DNA of 64,000 bases, taken from Halorussus salinus. GTDB lineage: Archaea; Halobacteriota; Halobacteria; Halobacteriales; Haladaptataceae. The notes under the pieces were generated by a model, which ran no database searches, was not told where the DNA came from, and worked only from the letters and a program-made list of their open reading frames with translations. The position numbers and the translations under genes are program-made. Location: assembly GCF_004765815.2 (NCBI RefSeq), contig NZ_SBIS02000008.1, positions 248,001 to 312,000 of the forward strand, given 5' to 3'. This document shows positions 12,171 through 21,575 of this stretch, piece by piece. Each line of letters starts with the position of its first letter. Position 1 is the stretch's first letter.

Positions 12171-12683
12171 TCAGCGACCGGCCGAGTACGGTTCGAACTC
12201 GTCGCGCTCCCGTAACTCGCCGTTCGGATAGCGTATCGTCCACGGCGGCACGTCCTCGTCTACGTACGACAGGGCGGTGACGACCGCACCCTCGCCGATG
12301 GTGACGCCGGGCATCACGACCGCGTTCGAGCCGACGAAGGCCTCGTCGCCGACCGCTATCGGGGCCATCACGTCGTCTCGCTCCTCGCTCGGGACGCGCG
12401 TACTCATGTGCGAGGTCGCCTTCGAGTAGCGCGTCACGAGGACACAGTTGTACGTCACCGCCACGTCCGAGCCGACGACCAACTCGCCGCCGCCGACGAC
12501 CCGCGTCCCGGCGTGGAGACACGAACGGTCGCCGAGTTCGGTGCGCCGACCGCAGTTCAGGAAGACGAAGTCGTCTATCTCGACCTCCTCGCCGAGCGTC
12601 AGGTTCTCGGGGTTGACGATGCGCGCCCCGTCGTAGACGTACTCGTGGGACGCCTTGAGTTCGGCCTCGTCCATGGACGCCAT
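12171..12683 (-). CDS. Left-handed beta-helix (hexapeptide) acyltransferase
   Basis: About 170 residues of hexapeptide-repeat sequence (runs of [LIV]-G-x4 such as NLTLGEEVEIDDFVFLNCG and VGDEAFVGSNAVVMPGVTIG), ending with the PPW-x-IRYPNGE segment typical of sugar O- or N-acetyltransferases. It would move an acyl group, usually acetyl from acetyl-CoA, to a hydroxyl or amine of a sugar; trimers are expected. Starts at GTG 12686, ATG 12683 and ATG 12674 are all in frame and I list 12683. It is the first gene of the nonulosonic-acid block, so it may acetylate an intermediate as LegH/PseH do, but PseH is a GNAT enzyme so this is only analogous. Confidence 0.75.
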   Translation of the reverse strand: MASMDEAELKASHEYVYDGARIVNPENLTLGEEVEIDDFVFLNCGRRTELGDRSCLHAGTRVVGGGELVVGSDVAVTYNCVLVTRYSKATSHMSTRVPSEERDDVMAPIAVGDEAFVGSNAVVMPGVTIGEGAVVTALSYVDEDVPPWTIRYPNGELRERDEFEPYSAGR

Positions 12684-12772
12684 CACGACGGAATCGCGTA
12701 AAACAGTACCTCCGGGTTCGGCGTTCCACCGAGTTCGGCGTTCCCGGTCGGTCTCCTCGGCTTCGTCGGCGG

Positions 12773-12859: not shown

Positions 12860-13573
12860 ATGAACGATTCTGTCCTCGGAGTCGTCCCGGCGCGCGGCGG
12901 GTCCAAACGCGTCCCGCGCAAGAACCTCGCCGAGGTCGCGGGCAAACCGATGGTCGCCCGCGCGGTCGAACAGGCCGAGAGCGCCGACGCGCTGGACGAG
13001 GTGGTCGTCTCGACGGACGACGAGGAGATACGTCGCGTCACCAGAGAGTTCGGCGGGGATGCCCCCTTCGAGCGACCGGCCGAACTGGCGACGGACACTG
13101 CGAGTAGTACCGACGTTATCGACCACGCGCTGTCGTGGTACGAATCCGAGCGCGGCGAGACGTTCGACGCGGTGGCGATGATTCAGGTGACGACGCCGCT
13201 CCGGGAATCCGCGGACGTGGACGGTGCCCTCGAACGCCTCCGCGAGACCGACGCCGACTCGGTGACAACCGTCACCGAGTACCAGACGCCGCCGGTGTGG
13301 GCCGTCTACGAGGAGGACGACCGACTCCGCCAGTTCTTCGACGGCGACTACCTCTGGACCGACGGCGAGGTGCCCCGGAGCCAAGACCTGCCGACGCTCT
13401 ACTATCCGAACGGCGCGGTGTTCGCCGCGACGGTCGAGGCGTTCCGGCGGGCGGACGGCTTCTACACCGACCACACCGTGGGCTACGAGATGCCGCCCGA
13501 GCGGTCGATAGACGTGGACGAACCGTTCGAGTTGCGGATGGTGCGCGCGCTCGCCGAGTACGATTCGGAGTGA
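12860..13573 (+). CDS. CMP-nonulosonic acid synthetase (NeuA/PseF/LegF family)
   Basis: A 237-residue cytidylyltransferase that activates a nine-carbon acid with CTP to a CMP-sugar. The P-loop-like start VVPARGGSKRVPRKN (residues 8-22) is diagnostic for acylneuraminate cytidylyltransferases, and the middle carries IQVTTPLRE (the QxTxPLR motif). Length is typical. The ATG at 12860 follows CTTATTGG by about 30 bases. Whether the product is CMP-pseudaminate, CMP-legionaminate or another acid cannot be settled from sequence; the PseG-like hydrolase downstream favours a di-N-acylated acid. Confidence 0.88.
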   Translation: MNDSVLGVVPARGGSKRVPRKNLAEVAGKPMVARAVEQAESADALDEVVVSTDDEEIRRVTREFGGDAPFERPAELATDTASSTDVIDHALSWYESERGETFDAVAMIQVTTPLRESADVDGALERLRETDADSVTTVTEYQTPPVWAVYEEDDRLRQFFDGDYLWTDGEVPRSQDLPTLYYPNGAVFAATVEAFRRADGFYTDHTVGYEMPPERSIDVDEPFELRMVRALAEYDSE

Positions 13574-13600: not shown

Positions 13601-14242
13601 TCACTCGGGGTTCCGGAGCAGAAACGCCCGGTCGAGGTCGTCGTTCTCCCGGTACTCGATGAATCGCTCGTCCGTGCAGTCGAGTCCGTGGCGGTCGAGG
13701 TAACGAGCGAGGAAATCGGTCTTCCAGAGCATTCGCTCCTCCCCGCGCCACTCGATTTCCGTGTACTCGTCGGCGTGGAACTCCAGCCCCCAAATCCACT
13801 CGTTCGAACACCGCACGATTTCGTCTATCACCGCATCGACCGACTCGGGCGGGACCGTCACCAGCGTCTCGTTGGTGAACACGAGGTCGAACTCGCCGTC
13901 TCGGAACGGGAGGTCGGTCGCGGTGGCCTTCAGCACCTCTATCTCGGAACGGTCGCGCCGACACCGGCGGAGACCGCCCGTGTGAACGTCCACGCCGTAC
14001 AGGTTCTCGAACCCCATCTCGTGGAGTATCTCCAGTTGGATACCGATGCCACAGCCGACTTCGAGGACCGTCGCGTCGCGGTCCACGCGGTCGAGGAACT
14101 CTCCCATCACGTCCGACTGGCCGAACCCCCACTGGTCGGTCCTGAGTCGGTCGAAGCCTTCGACGGTGGTCGGATGGCGCTCCCAGTATCGCCGACCGAA
14201 CTCGCCGTCCCACAGGTCTATCTGTCTGGTGCGTTCTGGCAT
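13601..14242 (-). CDS. SAM-dependent methyltransferase (pseudaminic-acid-associated type), copy 1
   Basis: A 213-residue class I methyltransferase with motif I TVLEVGCGIGIQL near 55-67 and post-motif region FDLVFTNETLVTVPPE. The N-terminal YWERHPTT and C-terminal WKTDFLARYL match the methylase family I know from pseudaminic-acid loci. It would methylate a hydroxyl or amine of a sugar acid with SAM. Start ATG 14242 (MPERTRQ) is preferred over an in-frame upstream start. It is convergent with the cytidylyltransferase (27-base gap) and homologous to the gene at 15705. Confidence 0.8.
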   Translation of the reverse strand: MPERTRQIDLWDGEFGRRYWERHPTTVEGFDRLRTDQWGFGQSDVMGEFLDRVDRDATVLEVGCGIGIQLEILHEMGFENLYGVDVHTGGLRRCRRDRSEIEVLKATATDLPFRDGEFDLVFTNETLVTVPPESVDAVIDEIVRCSNEWIWGLEFHADEYTEIEWRGEERMLWKTDFLARYLDRHGLDCTDERFIEYRENDDLDRAFLLRNPE

Positions 14243-14372
14243 CGCGTCGGTACCGACCCACGGCATCGAGTGGCTTAACTACTGACGCGGCCGCGACGAG
14301 TCGGCCGGGAGTAAATATAACACCGGGGATGACGACAGGAGTCGTAGGCGGTCTCCGACCGCCGGGGAGGAT

Positions 14373-15713
14373 ATGGGACACGAAACCGACGCCGACGACG
14401 AGCAACGCGTGCGAGAACTGTACGACGAACTATACCCGATATGCCGGAGCATCACCGGGCCGGGCCTCCGCGAGAGCCTCGGGATACTGGGCGAGGAGTT
14501 CCCGCTGGAAGTCGAGGGCGTCCCCTCGGGAACCGACGTGTTCGACTGGACGATTCCCGACGAGTGGCATATCCGCGAGGCGCGACTCGTCGGTCCCGAC
14601 GACGAGGTGTACGCCGACTTCGAGGACCACAACCTCTCGGTTGTCAACTACTCCGCGCCGGTGGACCGAGACGTGTCGCTGTCGGAGTTACAGTCGCACC
14701 TCTACTCCAGCGAGGGGGTGCCCGAGGCGATTCCGTACGTCACGAGTTACTACGAGCGCCACTGGGGGTTCTGCGTGCCCGAGACGGTCCGCAAGTCGAT
14801 GCCCGAGGGCGAGTACCACGCCTACGTGGACAGCGAGTTCGTCGACGGCGAACTGAACTACGGCCACGCCCTCCTCGACGGCGAGACCGACGACGAGGTG
14901 CTGTTGAGTTCGTACCTCTGCCATCCCTCGATGGCGAACAACGAGTTGAGCGGTCCGCTCGTGATGGCCTTGCTCTACGACCGCATCGCCGACTGGGACG
15001 ACCGACGGTACACCTACCGGTTCGTCCTCTGCCCCGAGACCATCGGGAGTCTGGCGTACCTCCACCGCTACGGCGACCACCTGCGCGAACGCGTCGTCGG
15101 CGGACTGGTGTTGACCTGCCTTGGCGGCCCGGAGCCGAACCTGAGCTACAAGCGAAGCCGGGAGGACGACGCCCTGCTGGACAGGCTCGTCGAACAGCGC
15201 GCCCGCCGAGGAGAGCCGGTCGAGACCAGACCGTTCGCCGAGATGTTCGGCTCCGACGAGCGCCAGTACTGCTCGGCCGGGTTCGACCTCCCGGTCGGAC
15301 AGGTCGCGCGCACCGTCTACGGCGAGTACGACGAGTACCACACGTCGGCCGACGACCGCGAGTTCGTGGAGTTGGAGTCGCTGGTCGAGAGCGCCGACTG
15401 GATAGCCGACCGACTGTGGGAGTTCGAACACGCCGGGCGACAGCGAAACCTCGAACCCTACGGCGAACCGATGCTGAGCAAGCACGACCTCTTCCCGACG
15501 GTCAGCGACTGGTCGGACCAGACCCGGCAGTTGACCGGGGTCGAGGAGCTTTCCGAGGAGCAGTTCCTCAAGCGCGTCCTGCTCGTCCTCCAGTACAGCG
15601 ACGGCGACCACGACTTGGTCGAAATCGCGGACGAACGCGACTGCACCGTCGAGGAACTCGTCCCCATCGTCCGCCGACTGTACGACGAGCAGTTGCTCGA
15701 ACCGCTAGGCTGA
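14373..15713 (+). CDS. DUF4910 aminopeptidase-like metalloenzyme
   Basis: A 446-residue protein of the DUF4910 family, an M28-peptidase-like zinc hydrolase fold with an inserted small domain. Early residues YPICRSITGPGLRE and later SSYLCHPSMANNELSGP (about 178-194), VLCPETIGSLAYL (E, about 219) and YHTSADD (His ligand, about 326) match the family's metal-binding blocks. A C-terminal winged-helix-like domain follows. Family members recur in legionaminic/pseudaminic loci, but the reaction is not established to my knowledge; amide hydrolysis of an N-acyl sugar acid is one possibility. Its 3' end overlaps the convergent second methylase by nine bases. Confidence 0.8.
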   Translation: MGHETDADDEQRVRELYDELYPICRSITGPGLRESLGILGEEFPLEVEGVPSGTDVFDWTIPDEWHIREARLVGPDDEVYADFEDHNLSVVNYSAPVDRDVSLSELQSHLYSSEGVPEAIPYVTSYYERHWGFCVPETVRKSMPEGEYHAYVDSEFVDGELNYGHALLDGETDDEVLLSSYLCHPSMANNELSGPLVMALLYDRIADWDDRRYTYRFVLCPETIGSLAYLHRYGDHLRERVVGGLVLTCLGGPEPNLSYKRSREDDALLDRLVEQRARRGEPVETRPFAEMFGSDERQYCSAGFDLPVGQVARTVYGEYDEYHTSADDREFVELESLVESADWIADRLWEFEHAGRQRNLEPYGEPMLSKHDLFPTVSDWSDQTRQLTGVEELSEEQFLKRVLLVLQYSDGDHDLVEIADERDCTVEELVPIVRRLYDEQLLEPLG

Positions 15714-16367
15714 GTCGGTCTCGTCGTCGGTTCGGGCGTCGGCTTTCCGGAGCAGGAATATCTCGTCCTTGTTGTCGGTCTCGTCGTAGTGGAGGAACCG
15801 CGACCGGACCGTTTCGAGGTCGTGGTTCTCCCGGTAGTGTCGCCGGAAGTCGGTCTTCCAGTAGAGCTGTTCGTCGTGATCGCTGTCGATTTCGACGTAC
15901 TCGTCGGCGTAGAACTCCGACCCGAGGACGTACTCGCGCGAACACCGCACGATTTCGGACTGCACGTCGGCGAGCAGTTCGGGCGGGATGGCGACGAGAC
16001 AGCCGTTCGTGAACACGAGGTCGAACGCGTCGTCCTCGAAGGGAAGTCGGCTCGCGTCGCCGACGACGGCGGGAATATCCGGCGAGTACTCGCGGGACTT
16101 GGCAATCGCGTACGACTGTACGTCGATACCGACCACGTTCTCGAAGCCGAGTTGCCGGAGACACCGTAGTTGGACGCCGACGTTCGACCCGACTTCGAGT
16201 ATCTCGGCGTCGCGGTCAACGTCGCCGAGGAGGTCCCGGTATATCTCCGACTGGGTGAGGCCGTACTGCTCCCGGCGGAGCGTTTCGAGGTCGTCGACCG
16301 TGTGGGGGTTGCGCTCGGTGTACTCGACTCCGGCGTCACCGGCCCACTTCTGGCCCTGTTCGCTCAT
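15705..16367 (-). CDS. SAM-dependent methyltransferase (pseudaminic-acid-associated type), copy 2
   Basis: A 220-residue class I methyltransferase with motif I EILEVGSNVGVQL and IVRCSREYVLGSEFYADEY, clearly paralogous to the gene at 13601: both share VDRDA.[IV]LEVG, GFENx.G[IV]DV, FDLVFTN and WKTDF. Motif I has SNVG instead of CGIG, which should still bind SAM. The first 25 residues (WAGDAGVEYTERNPHT) match the family start. The two copies flank the DUF4910 gene in inward-facing orientation. They may methylate different positions of the same sugar acid. Confidence 0.8.
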   Translation of the reverse strand: MSEQGQKWAGDAGVEYTERNPHTVDDLETLRREQYGLTQSEIYRDLLGDVDRDAEILEVGSNVGVQLRCLRQLGFENVVGIDVQSYAIAKSREYSPDIPAVVGDASRLPFEDDAFDLVFTNGCLVAIPPELLADVQSEIVRCSREYVLGSEFYADEYVEIDSDHDEQLYWKTDFRRHYRENHDLETVRSRFLHYDETDNKDEIFLLRKADARTDDETDSA

Positions 16368-16487: not shown

Positions 16488-17900
16488 TCAGGATTCGGCC
16501 GCGTCGAGTTCCGATTCGAGCGTCTTGTAGTTGCTGTACCGGGTCTTCGTGTAGTCCGGGAACCGACCCTCCGCGAGCGCCTGCTTTATTTCGCGGGCGG
16601 CGTCCGGAATCGTCCGCCGGACCTCGTAGTCGAGTCGGTCGTGAATCTTCGAGAAGTCCACTCGGTAGCTCCGGTCGTCCTCGTTCTCGGGTTGGTGGTC
16701 GATAGTCGCGTCCGGGAACACCTCCGAGACCATCTCGCCGATCTCCTCGACGCGGTAGTTCTGGGCGTTCGACCCGACGTTGAACACCTCCGAGGAGACA
16801 TCCTGAATCGGTGCCTCCAGACAGGCGATGTAGGCCCGCGCGGCGTCCGCGACGTGGACGTTCGGCCGGTACTGGTCGCCGCCGAATATCGGAATCCGGC
16901 CCTCGTCGTGGGCCTTCGCCGAGAGGATGTTGACCACGAGGTCGAAGCGCATCCGAGGAGAGAGACCGTAGATGGTCGCCATCCGAAGGATGGTCGGCGA
17001 GAAGTTCCCGTCGGCCATGTCCAACAGCGCCTCCTCGGAGTCGATTTTCGTCTGGGCGTACAGCGAGACCGGATTCAGCTCCGAGGTCTCGGTCAACAGC
17101 TCGTTCTCCTCGTCGAGACCGTAGACGCTACACGTCGAGGCGAATAGGAACCGATTAACTTGGTGGTATTTACAGATACCCGCCGCGAGTCTGACCGCGT
17201 GAAGGTTCATCTCCAAGGTCTTCTGGGCGTCGATGCTCGACGCCGGGTCGCCGACGAGCGCGCCGAGGTGGATAACCGCATCGACGCCCCGAATCGCTTC
17301 GGTCACGTCGGCGATAGAGCGCATATCGCCCTCCATCAGGGTGAACCGGTCGTCGTCCGCGAGGTCTTCGACTCCCTGACGGCCGTACAGGAGCATGTCG
17401 AGGACGCGAACGTCGTACCCCGCCGAGAGGAGTTCCCGAGAGAGGACCGACCCGATGTACCCCGCCCCGCCGATGACGAGGACGGTCTCGACGTTCCGGC
17501 CCGCCTCGACGGATTGGTTCGAGACGACCCGTCCGTTACGGTCCACCTGTTCGAAGCCTAAGACGTGGCCCTCGGAGACCACTGGGACGATAAGCGTCTC
17601 GTGGTCGGAGGTGCGTCGTCGCAACTCTTCGAGGTCCAGTCGGCCGGACACGTCGCCGGATACGTCCTCGGCGTTCAGGACGACGGAGTCCTCGGTCGTC
17701 ACCTCGGCGATAGCCGTGTCGAGGTCGAGTCCGTCGAGGATACCCCGACGGATGTCGCCGTCGGTCGCGGTCCCGCGGAAGCGACCGTCGTCGTTTACCA
17801 CTGCGACGAAACCGGTACCTACTCTATCCATCGTCCGCATCGTCTCGGCGAGCGACGCGTCGGCCGAGACGGTCATATCGTTCGGATTATCGAGTGTCAT
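16488..17900 (-). CDS. CBS-domain pair fused to NAD-dependent epimerase/dehydratase (SDR)
   Basis: A 470-residue fusion. Residues 1-125 are a CBS pair of the sort found at the front of PtmE-type sugar nucleotidyltransferases (note GTATDGDIRRGIL, 43-54, and LIVPVVSEGHVLGF). From 138 a full extended SDR follows: NAD-binding GGAGYIG at 144-150, AVIHLGA near 208-214, catalytic Y281-x3-K285 and the sugar-epimerase segment GGDQYRPNVHVADAARAYI. The SDR should act on a nucleotide sugar; the CBS pair may sense a nucleotide. I start at ATG 17900; an in-frame ATG 26 codons upstream is possible. The fusion of this CBS type to an SDR is unusual in my experience. Confidence 0.8.
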   Translation of the reverse strand: MTLDNPNDMTVSADASLAETMRTMDRVGTGFVAVVNDDGRFRGTATDGDIRRGILDGLDLDTAIAEVTTEDSVVLNAEDVSGDVSGRLDLEELRRRTSDHETLIVPVVSEGHVLGFEQVDRNGRVVSNQSVEAGRNVETVLVIGGAGYIGSVLSRELLSAGYDVRVLDMLLYGRQGVEDLADDDRFTLMEGDMRSIADVTEAIRGVDAVIHLGALVGDPASSIDAQKTLEMNLHAVRLAAGICKYHQVNRFLFASTCSVYGLDEENELLTETSELNPVSLYAQTKIDSEEALLDMADGNFSPTILRMATIYGLSPRMRFDLVVNILSAKAHDEGRIPIFGGDQYRPNVHVADAARAYIACLEAPIQDVSSEVFNVGSNAQNYRVEEIGEMVSEVFPDATIDHQPENEDDRSYRVDFSKIHDRLDYEVRRTIPDAAREIKQALAEGRFPDYTKTRYSNYKTLESELDAAES

Positions 17901-18131: not shown

Positions 18132-19280
18132 TCATACCCCGGCACGCACGGCCGCGACGATTCTGTCGGCCTCCTCGGCCGAGAGGTTGGGATGAATCGG
18201 CAGCGAGAGGACTCGTCCGGCCACGTCCTCCGTGACCGGGAGCGCGCCGGGGTCGTAGTCGTAGCGCCCGCGATAGTAGTCGGTCAGGTGGACCGGCGGG
18301 TCCCAGTAAATCTTCGAGGAGATATTCCGGGCGTCGAGCGCGTCTATTACGCCGTCTCTGTCCACGTCGGGGGAGAGCGTGACCGTGTACAGTTGGCGGA
18401 CGTGCGTCGAGTCGCCGAGTCCGCGGTGGGGTTCGACGCCCGACACGTCGGCGAGGCCATCGGTCATCCGGTCGGCCGCCCAGCGTCGCCCGGCGATTAG
18501 CTCCTCGACTTTCTCCATCTGCGCACAGCCGATGGCGGCCACCACGTCCGCCATACGGACGTTCGTCCCGATGTCGGGGTACCGACCGCTCCCGCTCGAC
18601 TCGAAGTAGTCGGTGGACTCCCGGCCGTGCGAACGGTAGAGGCGGGCGTTCTCCGCGATTTCCGAGTCGTCCGTGAGGACCGCGCCGCCCTCCCCGGTGG
18701 CGACGACCTTGTTCTGGCAGAAGCTGAACGCCGCCGAATCGCCGAACGTGCCGACCGACCGGCCATCGAACGTCGCGCCGAGCGATTCGGCCGCGTCCTC
18801 GACCAGCGCGAGGTCCTCGTCGTCGGCTATCGCGGCCAACTCGTCGATTCGACAGGTCGTGCCGTAGGGATGGACCGGTAGGAGCGCGGCCGTCTCGTCG
18901 GTTAGCTCCTCGCGGACCGAGGAGGGGTCGAGACCGTACGTCTCGCGCTCGATGTCGGCGAACACCGGCCGCGCGCCGACCAACTCGACGGCGTTGGCGG
19001 TGGCGACGAACGTGAACGACGGGACGACCACCTCGTCGCCCGGACCCACCCCGTGCGCTCGAAGCGCGGTCACGAGCGCGGTCGTCCCGGAGTTGACGAC
19101 GACGGCGTGGTCCAATCCCACGTACTCCGCGAGTTTCTCCTCGAACTCGGTGACGTACGGGCCTTTCGCCCAGTAGCCGCCGCGAGTGATGGAGTCCGTC
19201 GCGTTCTCGACATCGAGTTCGTCCCACGCGATTTCGAACAGCGGTATCTCCGGTCGCTCGCTCGCCGGACGGTCGCTCAC
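18132..19280 (-). CDS. DegT/DnrJ/EryC1/StrS-family sugar aminotransferase
   Basis: A 382-residue PLP enzyme that transfers an amino group from glutamate to a keto nucleotide-sugar. SGTTAL at 64-69 binds the phosphate, D162 in LALVEDAAESLGA contacts the pyridine nitrogen, and K191 in FSFCQNKVVATGEGG forms the Schiff base. The N-terminal GGYWAKGPYVTEFE is typical. In this neighbourhood it would fill the PseC/LegC role, making the 4-amino precursor of a diamino nonulosonic acid. It lies upstream of the CBS-SDR on the same strand (231 bases between) and is divergent from PseG. Confidence 0.88.
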   Translation of the reverse strand: MSDRPASERPEIPLFEIAWDELDVENATDSITRGGYWAKGPYVTEFEEKLAEYVGLDHAVVVNSGTTALVTALRAHGVGPGDEVVVPSFTFVATANAVELVGARPVFADIERETYGLDPSSVREELTDETAALLPVHPYGTTCRIDELAAIADDEDLALVEDAAESLGATFDGRSVGTFGDSAAFSFCQNKVVATGEGGAVLTDDSEIAENARLYRSHGRESTDYFESSGSGRYPDIGTNVRMADVVAAIGCAQMEKVEELIAGRRWAADRMTDGLADVSGVEPHRGLGDSTHVRQLYTVTLSPDVDRDGVIDALDARNISSKIYWDPPVHLTDYYRGRYDYDPGALPVTEDVAGRVLSLPIHPNLSAEEADRIVAAVRAGV

Positions 19281-19454: not shown

Positions 19455-20483
19455 ATGCATTTCGGCCTACGTGCTGACGGCGGTCCGGAACGGGGGTTCG
19501 GCCACCTCGTCCGGACGCGGACTCTCGCGCGGGAACTGCTCGACAGAGGCCACGCAGTGACCTACCTGTCGAAGACTCCCGAGAGCGTCGAGCGCGTCTG
19601 CGACGCCGAGGAGTTGGCGGTCGTCTCGGTGCCGACCGAGGAGGAAGCCGACGACGACGAATCCGAAGCGGATGAGGACGCCGCGAGGCTCCTCGATGCG
19701 GCCCGCGAGGAGGGAATCGACGCCCTCGTCGTGGACCGCGGCGCGGTCGGACTGGAGACCCAGCGCGACCTCTCGGCGGCGCTCCCGCTCGCGCTGATAC
19801 TCGACGGGGAGGGAGGGACGGTCGCCTGCGACCTCGTGGTCAACGGCCACCTCTACGCGACGGTCGAGGACTACGAGTTCGAGGGCGACGAGCCGGACTG
19901 GTGCGTCGGGAGCGACTACTACCTCCTCGACGCCGACCTCCGGCGACTCGCCGACCGGGAGGTGCCGTGGCGCGACCCGCCCGAGCGCGGCCTGATAACG
20001 ATGGGCGGGAGCGACGTGGGGAACGCGACCCCCGACGCGGTCCGGGCCTTCGACGGGACCGGTCTCGAAATCGACGTTATCGTCGGGCCGGGATTCCAGA
20101 ACGAGGAGCAAATCGACGCCGCGGTCCGAGAGACCGACGCGACGTTCGACGTGGTTCGGGACCCCGACGACCTCCCGCAGCGGATGTTCGAGGCCGACCT
20201 CGCGGTCACGGCGCTCGGACTCACCGTCTACGAGTTGCTCGCGCTCCGGACGCCCTTCGTCGGACTCCCGCAAGCGCCCGACCAGTATCCGAAGGTCGCC
20301 CCGCTCCGGGAGCGGGACGCCGGACTCGTCGTCGCGCCGGGCGACGACCGCGAGTTGGCCGACGCGGTCTCGACGCTACTGCACGACGCCGAGCGCCGCC
20401 GGACCTTCTTCGAGCGCGGCCGGGAACTCGTCTCCGGCGACGGCACCGCGGCGGTCGCCGACCGACTCGAAGAACTCGGGTGA
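19455..20483 (+). CDS. pseG: PseG-like UDP-sugar hydrolase of nonulosonic acid synthesis
   Basis: A 342-residue GT-B-fold hydrolase that removes UDP from the fully acylated diamino sugar before condensation with phosphoenolpyruvate. The start FGLRADGGPERGFGHLVRT is the PseG signature (RxDxx..GxGHxxR with the catalytic His). The second domain has LITMGGSDVGNAT and ALGLTVYELLALRTPFVGLP, the usual nucleotide-binding blocks. An acidic insert (EEEADDDESEADEDA, about residues 60-75) is a halophile decoration. It neighbours the NeuB/PseI gene and the aminotransferase. PseG membership strongly suggests a pseudaminate-like rather than sialate route. Confidence 0.87.
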   Translation: MHFGLRADGGPERGFGHLVRTRTLARELLDRGHAVTYLSKTPESVERVCDAEELAVVSVPTEEEADDDESEADEDAARLLDAAREEGIDALVVDRGAVGLETQRDLSAALPLALILDGEGGTVACDLVVNGHLYATVEDYEFEGDEPDWCVGSDYYLLDADLRRLADREVPWRDPPERGLITMGGSDVGNATPDAVRAFDGTGLEIDVIVGPGFQNEEQIDAAVRETDATFDVVRDPDDLPQRMFEADLAVTALGLTVYELLALRTPFVGLPQAPDQYPKVAPLRERDAGLVVAPGDDRELADAVSTLLHDAERRRTFFERGRELVSGDGTAAVADRLEELG

Positions 20484-20513: not shown

Positions 20514-21575
20514 CTACTCGTCCACCGGGTCGCCGGTCACGTCGTCCCACCGGATACCGCTTCCGGCGTCGAGGTCTCGGGTCGCTTCCCGGCCGACCAC
20601 GGCGTCGAGGAACTTGGGTTCGACTCCGCGCTCGCGCTCGCCCGAGCGGAGCGCCGACACGGCGGACTCCTCGATGACCTCGCCAGCGTCGAGGTCTTCG
20701 GTCGCGTGAACCGTCCGCCGGGCCGACTCGTACCAGTCGCGCTCGACGGCTTCGACGCCGACCGACCCGTCGCCGAGCGCGACCTCGGCGTCCCGAATCG
20801 CGGTTATCATCCGGTCGAGTTCGTCGGGTTCGAGCGCGAAGGAGTGGTCCGCGCCCTCCAAGTCGCTGTCCAGCGTGAAGTGCTTCTCGACTATCGAGGC
20901 TCCCAACGCGACGGCGGCGGCGGGCGCGACAACCGGGTCGGTCGTGTGGTCGGAGTAGCCGACCGGCACGTCGAACTCCTCGGCGAGCGTGGCGACGGCG
21001 CGCACGTTCGCCGATTCGAGCGGCGTCGGATACGACGAGACGCAGTGCAGGAGCGCCACCTCCGAGGCTCCGGCGTCTCGCAGGACCGAGAGCGCGCTCC
21101 GCACGTCTTCGAGGTCGTGCGCACCGGTCGAGGCGACGACGGGTTTGTCGCGCTCCGCGACTCGCCGGAGGAACGGATGGTGGCTGAGCATGGACGAGGC
21201 GATTTTGAACGCCGGGACGTACTCGTCCAACTCGTCGAGCGCGCGCTCGTCCAGCGGCGTGGACATGAACAGCACGCCGCGGTCGTCGCAGTGGTCTCTC
21301 AGTTCCGGAATCCAGTCGTACGGCATCTCCATCTCGGCGACGAACTCCCGGAGCGACTGGTCGTCCCCGACGCTCCCGGCCTCCTCGGCGTACATCGTCT
21401 CGGCGCGGAAGTTCTGGAACTTGACGGCGTCCGCACCGGCGTCGGCCGCGGCGTCTATCAGCGACTTGGCCTGTTCCAAGTCGCCGTCGTGGTTCGACCC
21501 CGCTTCCGCGATGACGAAGGTCGGCCGGTCGGTCCCGATTGCGTGCCCCCCGATTTGCATGGCCTCTGATTCCAC
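20514..21575 (-). CDS. Nonulosonic acid synthase (NeuB/PseI family)
   Basis: A 353-residue enzyme condensing phosphoenolpyruvate with a six-carbon amino sugar to give a nine-carbon acid. The TIM barrel opens with FVIAEAGSNHDGDLEQAK and ADAVKFQNF; LLHCVSSYPTP, VGYSDHTTD and IVEKHFTLD carry the active-site and metal residues typical of NeuB. Residues about 290-350 form the C-terminal SAF/antifreeze-like domain. Starts at 21575 (MESEAMQ) or five codons later are both possible. It is convergent with PseG across a 30-base gap, so coregulation would require separate promoters. Confidence 0.9.
   Translation of the reverse strand: MESEAMQIGGHAIGTDRPTFVIAEAGSNHDGDLEQAKSLIDAAADAGADAVKFQNFRAETMYAEEAGSVGDDQSLREFVAEMEMPYDWIPELRDHCDDRGVLFMSTPLDERALDELDEYVPAFKIASSMLSHHPFLRRVAERDKPVVASTGAHDLEDVRSALSVLRDAGASEVALLHCVSSYPTPLESANVRAVATLAEEFDVPVGYSDHTTDPVVAPAAAVALGASIVEKHFTLDSDLEGADHSFALEPDELDRMITAIRDAEVALGDGSVGVEAVERDWYESARRTVHATEDLDAGEVIEESAVSALRSGERERGVEPKFLDAVVGREATRDLDAGSGIRWDDVTGDPVDE

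Follow-up and report, generated by a model that had tools for sequence, protein, structure and literature searches.

A CBS-domain pair fused to an extended SDR in a nonulosonic-acid island of Halorussus salinus: a possible sensor on a putative early pathway enzyme

The fusion of a pair of CBS domains to a nucleotide-sugar SDR in Halorussus salinus raises the questions of which reaction such an enzyme catalyses, what the CBS module contributes to it and whether the combination is a local oddity. Little is known about the microbial control of nonulosonic acid (NulO) output. A window of 64,000 nucleotides (contig NZ_SBIS02000008.1, positions 248,001 to 312,000) of the haloarchaeal genome G000 (4.75 Mb) was analyzed, and all coordinates of this locus refer to that window. 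A sequence-only reading had proposed that a nucleotide-sensing module known from PtmE-type nucleotidyltransferases was moved by a domain swap onto another step of the pathway, where it might be controlled by a CMP-sugar or adenylate.

The fusion protein and its surroundings

The gene is a single open reading frame of the minus strand that starts with an ATG at 17900, ends at 16488 and encodes 470 amino acids (Table 1). Pfam recognizes CBS (PF00571) at residues 7-55 (E 5.8e-8, 33.4 bits against a cut-off of 24) and Epimerase (PF01370) at residues 140-376 (E 4.5e-44). CBS repeat 1 alone lies above the Pfam cut-off and repeat 2 (about residues 60-126) is degenerate; the AlphaFold model displays a compact module of two CBS repeats, with a pLDDT of 92 for the whole protein and 89 for the CBS part alone, and confidence drops below 50 solely at residues 128-133 of the linker. 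In Foldseek the model of the CBS part retrieves CBS pairs from the PDB, with 3k2v and 4o9k as best matches. The N-terminal part thus combines a repeat above the Pfam cut-off with the fold of a CBS pair and belongs to the CBS family, and the GGAGYIG loop and the Y281-x3-K285 pair identify the rest as an extended SDR. That a CBS pair is fused to a complete SDR, as read from the letters, was confirmed by reading frame, Pfam and AlphaFold, and the motifs named in that reading, GTxTDGDIRRG, GGAGYIG and Y281-x3-K285, were all found. Chance or assembly error was ruled out because a full-length homologue of 70% identity exists in another haloarchaeal family (G371) and because TDGDI is unchanged in seven haloarchaeal homologues, the CBS parts of which are only 24-51% identical to that of Halorussus salinus.

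Table 1. Features of the fusion gene and the surrounding island (positions in the window).
Feature	Coordinates	Strand	Evidence
CBS-SDR fusion protein, 470 aa	16488..17900	-	ORF, Pfam, AlphaFold model
N-terminal CBS pair and linker, residues 1-132	17505..17900	-	Pfam CBS 7-55, AlphaFold, Foldseek 3k2v/4o9k
GTATDGDIRRG motif, residues 43-53	17742..17774	-	TDGDI invariant in 7 haloarchaeal homologues
Extended SDR domain, residues 139-443	16572..17486	-	Pfam Epimerase; Foldseek 6vo6/6vo8
GGAGYIG, NAD-binding loop of SDR, residues 144-150	17451..17471	-	sequence
STCSVYG, T-C-S site, residues 255-261	17118..17138	-	aligned to T-N-S of Cj1427
Y281-x3-K285 catalytic pair	17046..17060	-	sequence
DegT/PseC-like aminotransferase, immediately upstream of CBS-SDR	18132..19280	-	PF01041 E 1.1e-115
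PseG-like nucleotide-sugar hydrolase	19455..20483	+	TIGR03590 E 8.4e-37, below cut-off
NeuB/PseI-type nonulosonate synthase with SAF domain	20514..21575	-	PF03102 E 5.2e-81
PseF/NeuA-type CMP-nonulosonate synthetase	12860..13573	+	PF02348 E 8.5e-24; TIGR03584 E 6e-48, below cut-off
Hexapeptide acyltransferase, candidate N-acyl step	12171..12686	-	PF00132, PF14602
Pseudaminic-acid-associated methylase 1	13601..14266	-	TIGR03587 above cut-off
Pseudaminic-acid-associated methylase 2	15705..16367	-	TIGR03587 above cut-off
DUF4910/DUF2172 aminopeptidase-like protein	14373..15713	+	PF16254 E 5.4e-85

The region is a NulO island: a NeuB synthase, a CMP-NulO synthetase, a hydrolase and an aminotransferase lie in one place, and genes for an acyltransferase and two methylases also surround the fusion gene. 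Its DUF4910/DUF2172/HTH_47 protein (14373-15713) has relatives close to the SDR at L037 and at the bacterial loci L133 and L151, and an ATP-grasp protein associated with sugar transfer (PF14397, 6870-8312) is situated at the island edge.

Close homologues with an N-terminal extension are carried by 26 of 391 genomes of the class, Halorussus salinus included. The TDGDIR motif is retained in six haloarchaeal genomes besides Halorussus salinus, which together with G742 gives eight genomes with an intact CBS-SDR. The remaining 19 and L079, found in the species scan, form a single clade with an altered motif (support 100 in the SDR tree), which retains the N-terminal extension, CBS repeat 2 having been lost in several members. 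In 25 of the 26 haloarchaeal loci, that of Halorussus salinus among them, the CBS-SDR has a DegT gene (58-73% identical) as its direct neighbour; in the exception, L039, the sole DegT homologue is distant and lies 5 kb off.

The reaction of the SDR domain

The name epimerase/dehydratase, given to the domain by the sequence-only reading, is doubtful, because the acid/base residues of a dehydratase are missing. The triplet T-D-E or T-D-K of 4,6-dehydratases was sought in the SDR and is absent; residues 256-258 read T-C-S where those enzymes have T-D-E, and C257 and S258 are near-invariant among 48 relatives. The domain also stays below the NCBIfam cut-offs for LegB (TIGR04180, 80.5 of 475 bits), RmlB (94.1 of 365) and PseB (23.6 of 408; TIGR03589, E 2.2e-5). 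Its nearest solved protein, by sequence (about 30% identity) as well as by fold (6vo6/6vo8; Foldseek TM-score 0.92-0.95 on target length), is Cj1427, the GDP-heptose C4-dehydrogenase of Campylobacter jejuni, with which it has in common a T-x-S triplet (T-N-S versus T-C-S) and the signature SPRMR-x-DL-x-VN, so that the SDR is Cj1427-like in sequence, fold and site; however, Cj1427 has no CBS part and acts on a heptose in a capsule pathway. Cj1427 oxidizes GDP-heptose at C4, and its tightly bound NADH is re-oxidized by 2-oxoglutarate (PMC10680097). From this likeness, the T-C-S site, the adjoining DegT gene and the lack of LegB (above cut-off) and PseB (at E 1e-20) in all eight haloarchaeal genomes with an intact CBS-SDR, we infer C4 oxidation followed by amination by DegT.

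With NAD in the GGAGYIG loop and T256, Y281 and K285 in the active site, the SDR would oxidize C4 of a nucleotide-activated amino sugar, as fold and site suggest, presumably without loss of water, since C257 and S258 stand where 4,6-dehydratases carry their Asp/Glu pair. The adjoining aminotransferase, judged by the gene pairing, would aminate the resulting 4-keto sugar and yield 2-oxoglutarate from glutamate, the compound with which Cj1427 re-oxidizes its NADH. The PseG-like, NeuB-like and PseF-like enzymes would then produce a CMP-NulO whose C9 hydroxyl would be preserved in the absence of any dehydratase step.

Alternatively, the SDR might be a true 4,6-dehydratase that performs a LegB-like first step without the usual Asp/Glu pair and is regulated by the CBS pair, a reading we hold to be unlikely, albeit with several points in its favour. 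The SDR stands beside the aminotransferase, where the dehydratase of this otherwise complete NulO island would be expected, and the eight haloarchaeal genomes have neither LegB nor PseB, at the thresholds given, elsewhere. To our knowledge, the known NulOs made via DegT enzymes are 9-deoxy sugars, which would speak for a dehydratase here as well. There is, furthermore, a precedent for naming such a gene LegB in Halorubrum PV6, where an epimerase/dehydratase gene lies beside an aminotransferase gene and the confirmed activities are LegI and LegF only (PMC6137143). LegB and PseB dehydratases also resemble the SDR in their extended SDR fold and their place in the pathway beside an aminotransferase, but they possess the T-D-E (or T-D-K) residues, in place of which nearly all relatives of the SDR have T-C-S. 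A genuine T-D-E enzyme (STDEVYG) is moreover readily recognized at L255 in one of the same genomes, and the best fold match is a C4-dehydrogenase. The non-dehydrating C4 oxidation is therefore preferred, and the customary labelling of archaeal genes of this SDR type as LegB dehydratases is put in question.

Kinship of the CBS module and its association with NeuB

Relatives of the CBS module were sought by profile in 62 genomes, which had been picked via SDR similarity and hence are no random sample, some of their contigs being short. Of six new matches above 80 bits, that is, matches left out of profile building, five were CBS-nucleotidyltransferases and the sixth was an isolated CBS frame; four of these six lay within about 5 kb of NeuB, as opposed to none of the 34 weaker matches examined (SIS-CBS, IMPDH-like and others; Fisher 1.6e-4). 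Among 393 genomes of the phylum, the best three CBS matches on proteins other than the SDR were two CBS-cupins (MannoseP_isomer, PF01050) and one CBS-nucleotidyltransferase, and all three genes adjoin NeuB and CMP-synthetase genes. Frames with a CBS pair and a cupin of the mannose-6-phosphate-isomerase type were observed at L177:8428-9210 and L178:8756-9547, each in a genome of the phylum that lies outside the class Halobacteria.

A tree was built of 75 CBS modules; it is weak because of its few columns. Here 12 of 16 SDR modules join five nucleotidyltransferase modules (SH-aLRT 86), the SIS (KpsF-type) modules stand apart together with some unclassified members (95) and the IMPDH-like ones form a third group (83). 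The proposed kinship with PtmE-type CBS-nucleotidyltransferases is supported by this grouping; both kinds of protein have an N-terminal CBS pair with TDGDIRR and NulO genes as neighbours. They differ in the catalytic part: the fusion protein lacks the PtmE architecture of a CBS pair followed by a nucleotidyltransferase, an SDR standing in place of the latter. Next nearest in sequence, and nearest among solved structures by sequence and fold, are the CBS pairs of the KpsF/GutQ/KdsD arabinose-5-phosphate isomerases (3k2v, 4o9k, 3fna), which likewise belong to an early enzyme on the way to a CMP-activated ulosonic acid (Kdo), but these are SIS isomerases with C-terminal CBS domains and a branch of their own in the CBS tree. 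PDB entry 4o9k presumably contains CMP-Kdo.

A NeuB gene is present in all eight haloarchaeal genomes with an intact CBS-SDR and in none of the 20 of the altered-motif sister clade. Among the matches listed, seven of eight genomes outside the haloarchaea with an intact CBS-SDR possess NeuB, resulting in 15 of 16 overall; weak NeuB matches (E about 1e-6 to 1e-13) were excluded as probable DAHP-synthase-like relatives. Position 49, which we take to be the ribose-binding Asp of CBS sites, is D in 7/7 intact haloarchaeal modules and R in 17 of 18 NeuB-less relatives. As G43, T46 and R51 are retained in the NeuB-less clade, its site may have switched ligand rather than decayed, and the notion of a simple CBS loss in this group, considered at the outset, was softened by these residues together with the near-fixed R. 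Since the altered haloarchaeal group is one clade, it counts as one event. A second consists of L090 (altered or broken motif, no NeuB) and its sister L111 (neither CBS nor NeuB), and L138, likewise lacking both, is perhaps a third. The independent pairs number two on well-supported branches and three when every branch of the CBS-SDR clade is admitted, counts too small to reach significance. There are two counter-cases, a plain SDR within the CBS-SDR clade in a genome with NeuB (L149) and an intact CBS module with no clear NeuB in a 1.1-Mb draft (L081), and in three haloarchaeal genomes NeuB is separated from the CBS-SDR by 13-19 kb instead of adjoining it. Bacterial relatives of the SDR are found in genomes lacking NeuB, and the SDR as such is therefore not confined to NulO synthesis. 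Based on two to three independent changes, the comparison suggests that the CBS module tracks the pathway rather than the enzyme, and the NeuB association and the CBS kinship speak for the pathway-bound sensor proposed earlier.

In the NeuB-less group, a conserved gene without a Pfam match precedes the CBS-SDR/DegT pair at 18 loci (L042-L061, e.g., L043:4191-4961), and in several cases the pair is plasmid-borne (Haloterrigena, Natrinema and Natronorubrum).

Tentatively, we favour the reading that the fusion is an early enzyme of the CMP-NulO pathway, a non-dehydrating C4 oxidase with a CBS feedback sensor for CMP-NulO or CMP. The CBS pair, to go by its distribution and kinship, would bind the end product CMP-NulO, or CMP, via the TDGD motif and thereby slow the SDR, and as the predicted ligand a CMP-linked compound is preferred over an adenylate. 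A sensor of AMP, ATP or the energy state, the role found in most CBS proteins studied so far, would agree with the many adenine-nucleotide CBS structures among the Foldseek matches and with a motif that does not by itself fix the base, but energy sensing should not track the presence of NeuB, nor should the same CBS type then be expected on three enzyme types beside NulO genes, and we judge it improbable. More improbable still appears a purely structural module that builds dimers or higher assemblies and for which ligand binding no longer matters: repeat 2 is degenerate, repeat 1 has diverged about 1.4-1.9 times as much as the SDR and relatives without CBS exist (L062-L071, L111, L138), yet TDGDI is invariant in seven haloarchaeal homologues in spite of the low identity across their CBS parts.

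The feedback reading can be widened, to a possible but doubtful generalization: a dedicated CBS sensor for CMP-ulosonic acids would sit on at least four unrelated early enzymes (SDR, nucleotidyltransferase, cupin isomerase and the SIS isomerase of the Kdo branch), be changed or lost with the pathway, and control here a non-dehydrating C4 oxidase leading to a 7-amino NulO with a C9 hydroxyl. If this is true, a sensor module that moves between enzymes but stays with the pathway would mark the regulated step in any genome, could serve as a handle to raise CMP-NulO yields in synthesis and would add CMP-sugars to the ligands worth testing on CBS domains.

Distribution and origin of the architecture

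A scan of genome contigs with the single protein gave no match, but a family-alignment scan over 84,980 species genomes, of which the best 80 matches were used, did. Among these matches, full fusions occur in Thermoplasmata, Desulfurococcales, the DPANN archaea Diapherotrites and Aenigmatarchaeota, and the bacterial groups Bacteroidetes, Yanofskybacteria and Omnitrophota. With the fusion spread over more than one archaeal phylum and a small number of bacteria, the supposed novelty of a local domain swap is not supported: the CBS-SDR is an old, rare architecture and no local oddity. The possibility, raised beforehand, of a widespread and already characterized architecture proved partly true as to its spread; regarding characterization, no paper on the subject was found in the literature on CBS domains with NulO or PtmE or on 3K2V/4O9K. 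In the SDR tree all CBS-SDRs fall into a single clade (support 88, not starred) that also contains three plain SDRs, a pattern that looks like one old fusion event with some later losses. An origin by deletion of the nucleotidyltransferase domain in a CBS-nucleotidyltransferase/SDR/DegT operon, as at L127, L136 and L145, was considered and is not claimed, because the SDRs adjoining CBS-nucleotidyltransferases belong to another clade, outside of which the CBS-SDRs fall.

Other extensions of the same SDR were encountered as well. At L088:7509-9047, L092:7635-9206, L114:7488-8975 and about 25 more loci it bears an N-terminal extension of 160-185 aa, which by eye resembles several membrane helices, sometimes with a CoA_binding_3-like stretch; these loci usually lie beside DegT and mostly are without NeuB. 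In L124:2306-4468, L139:2255-4417 and L140:946-3324 the SDR is followed by a DegT-like match in one frame of 720-792 aa, which makes them possible SDR-aminotransferase fusions.
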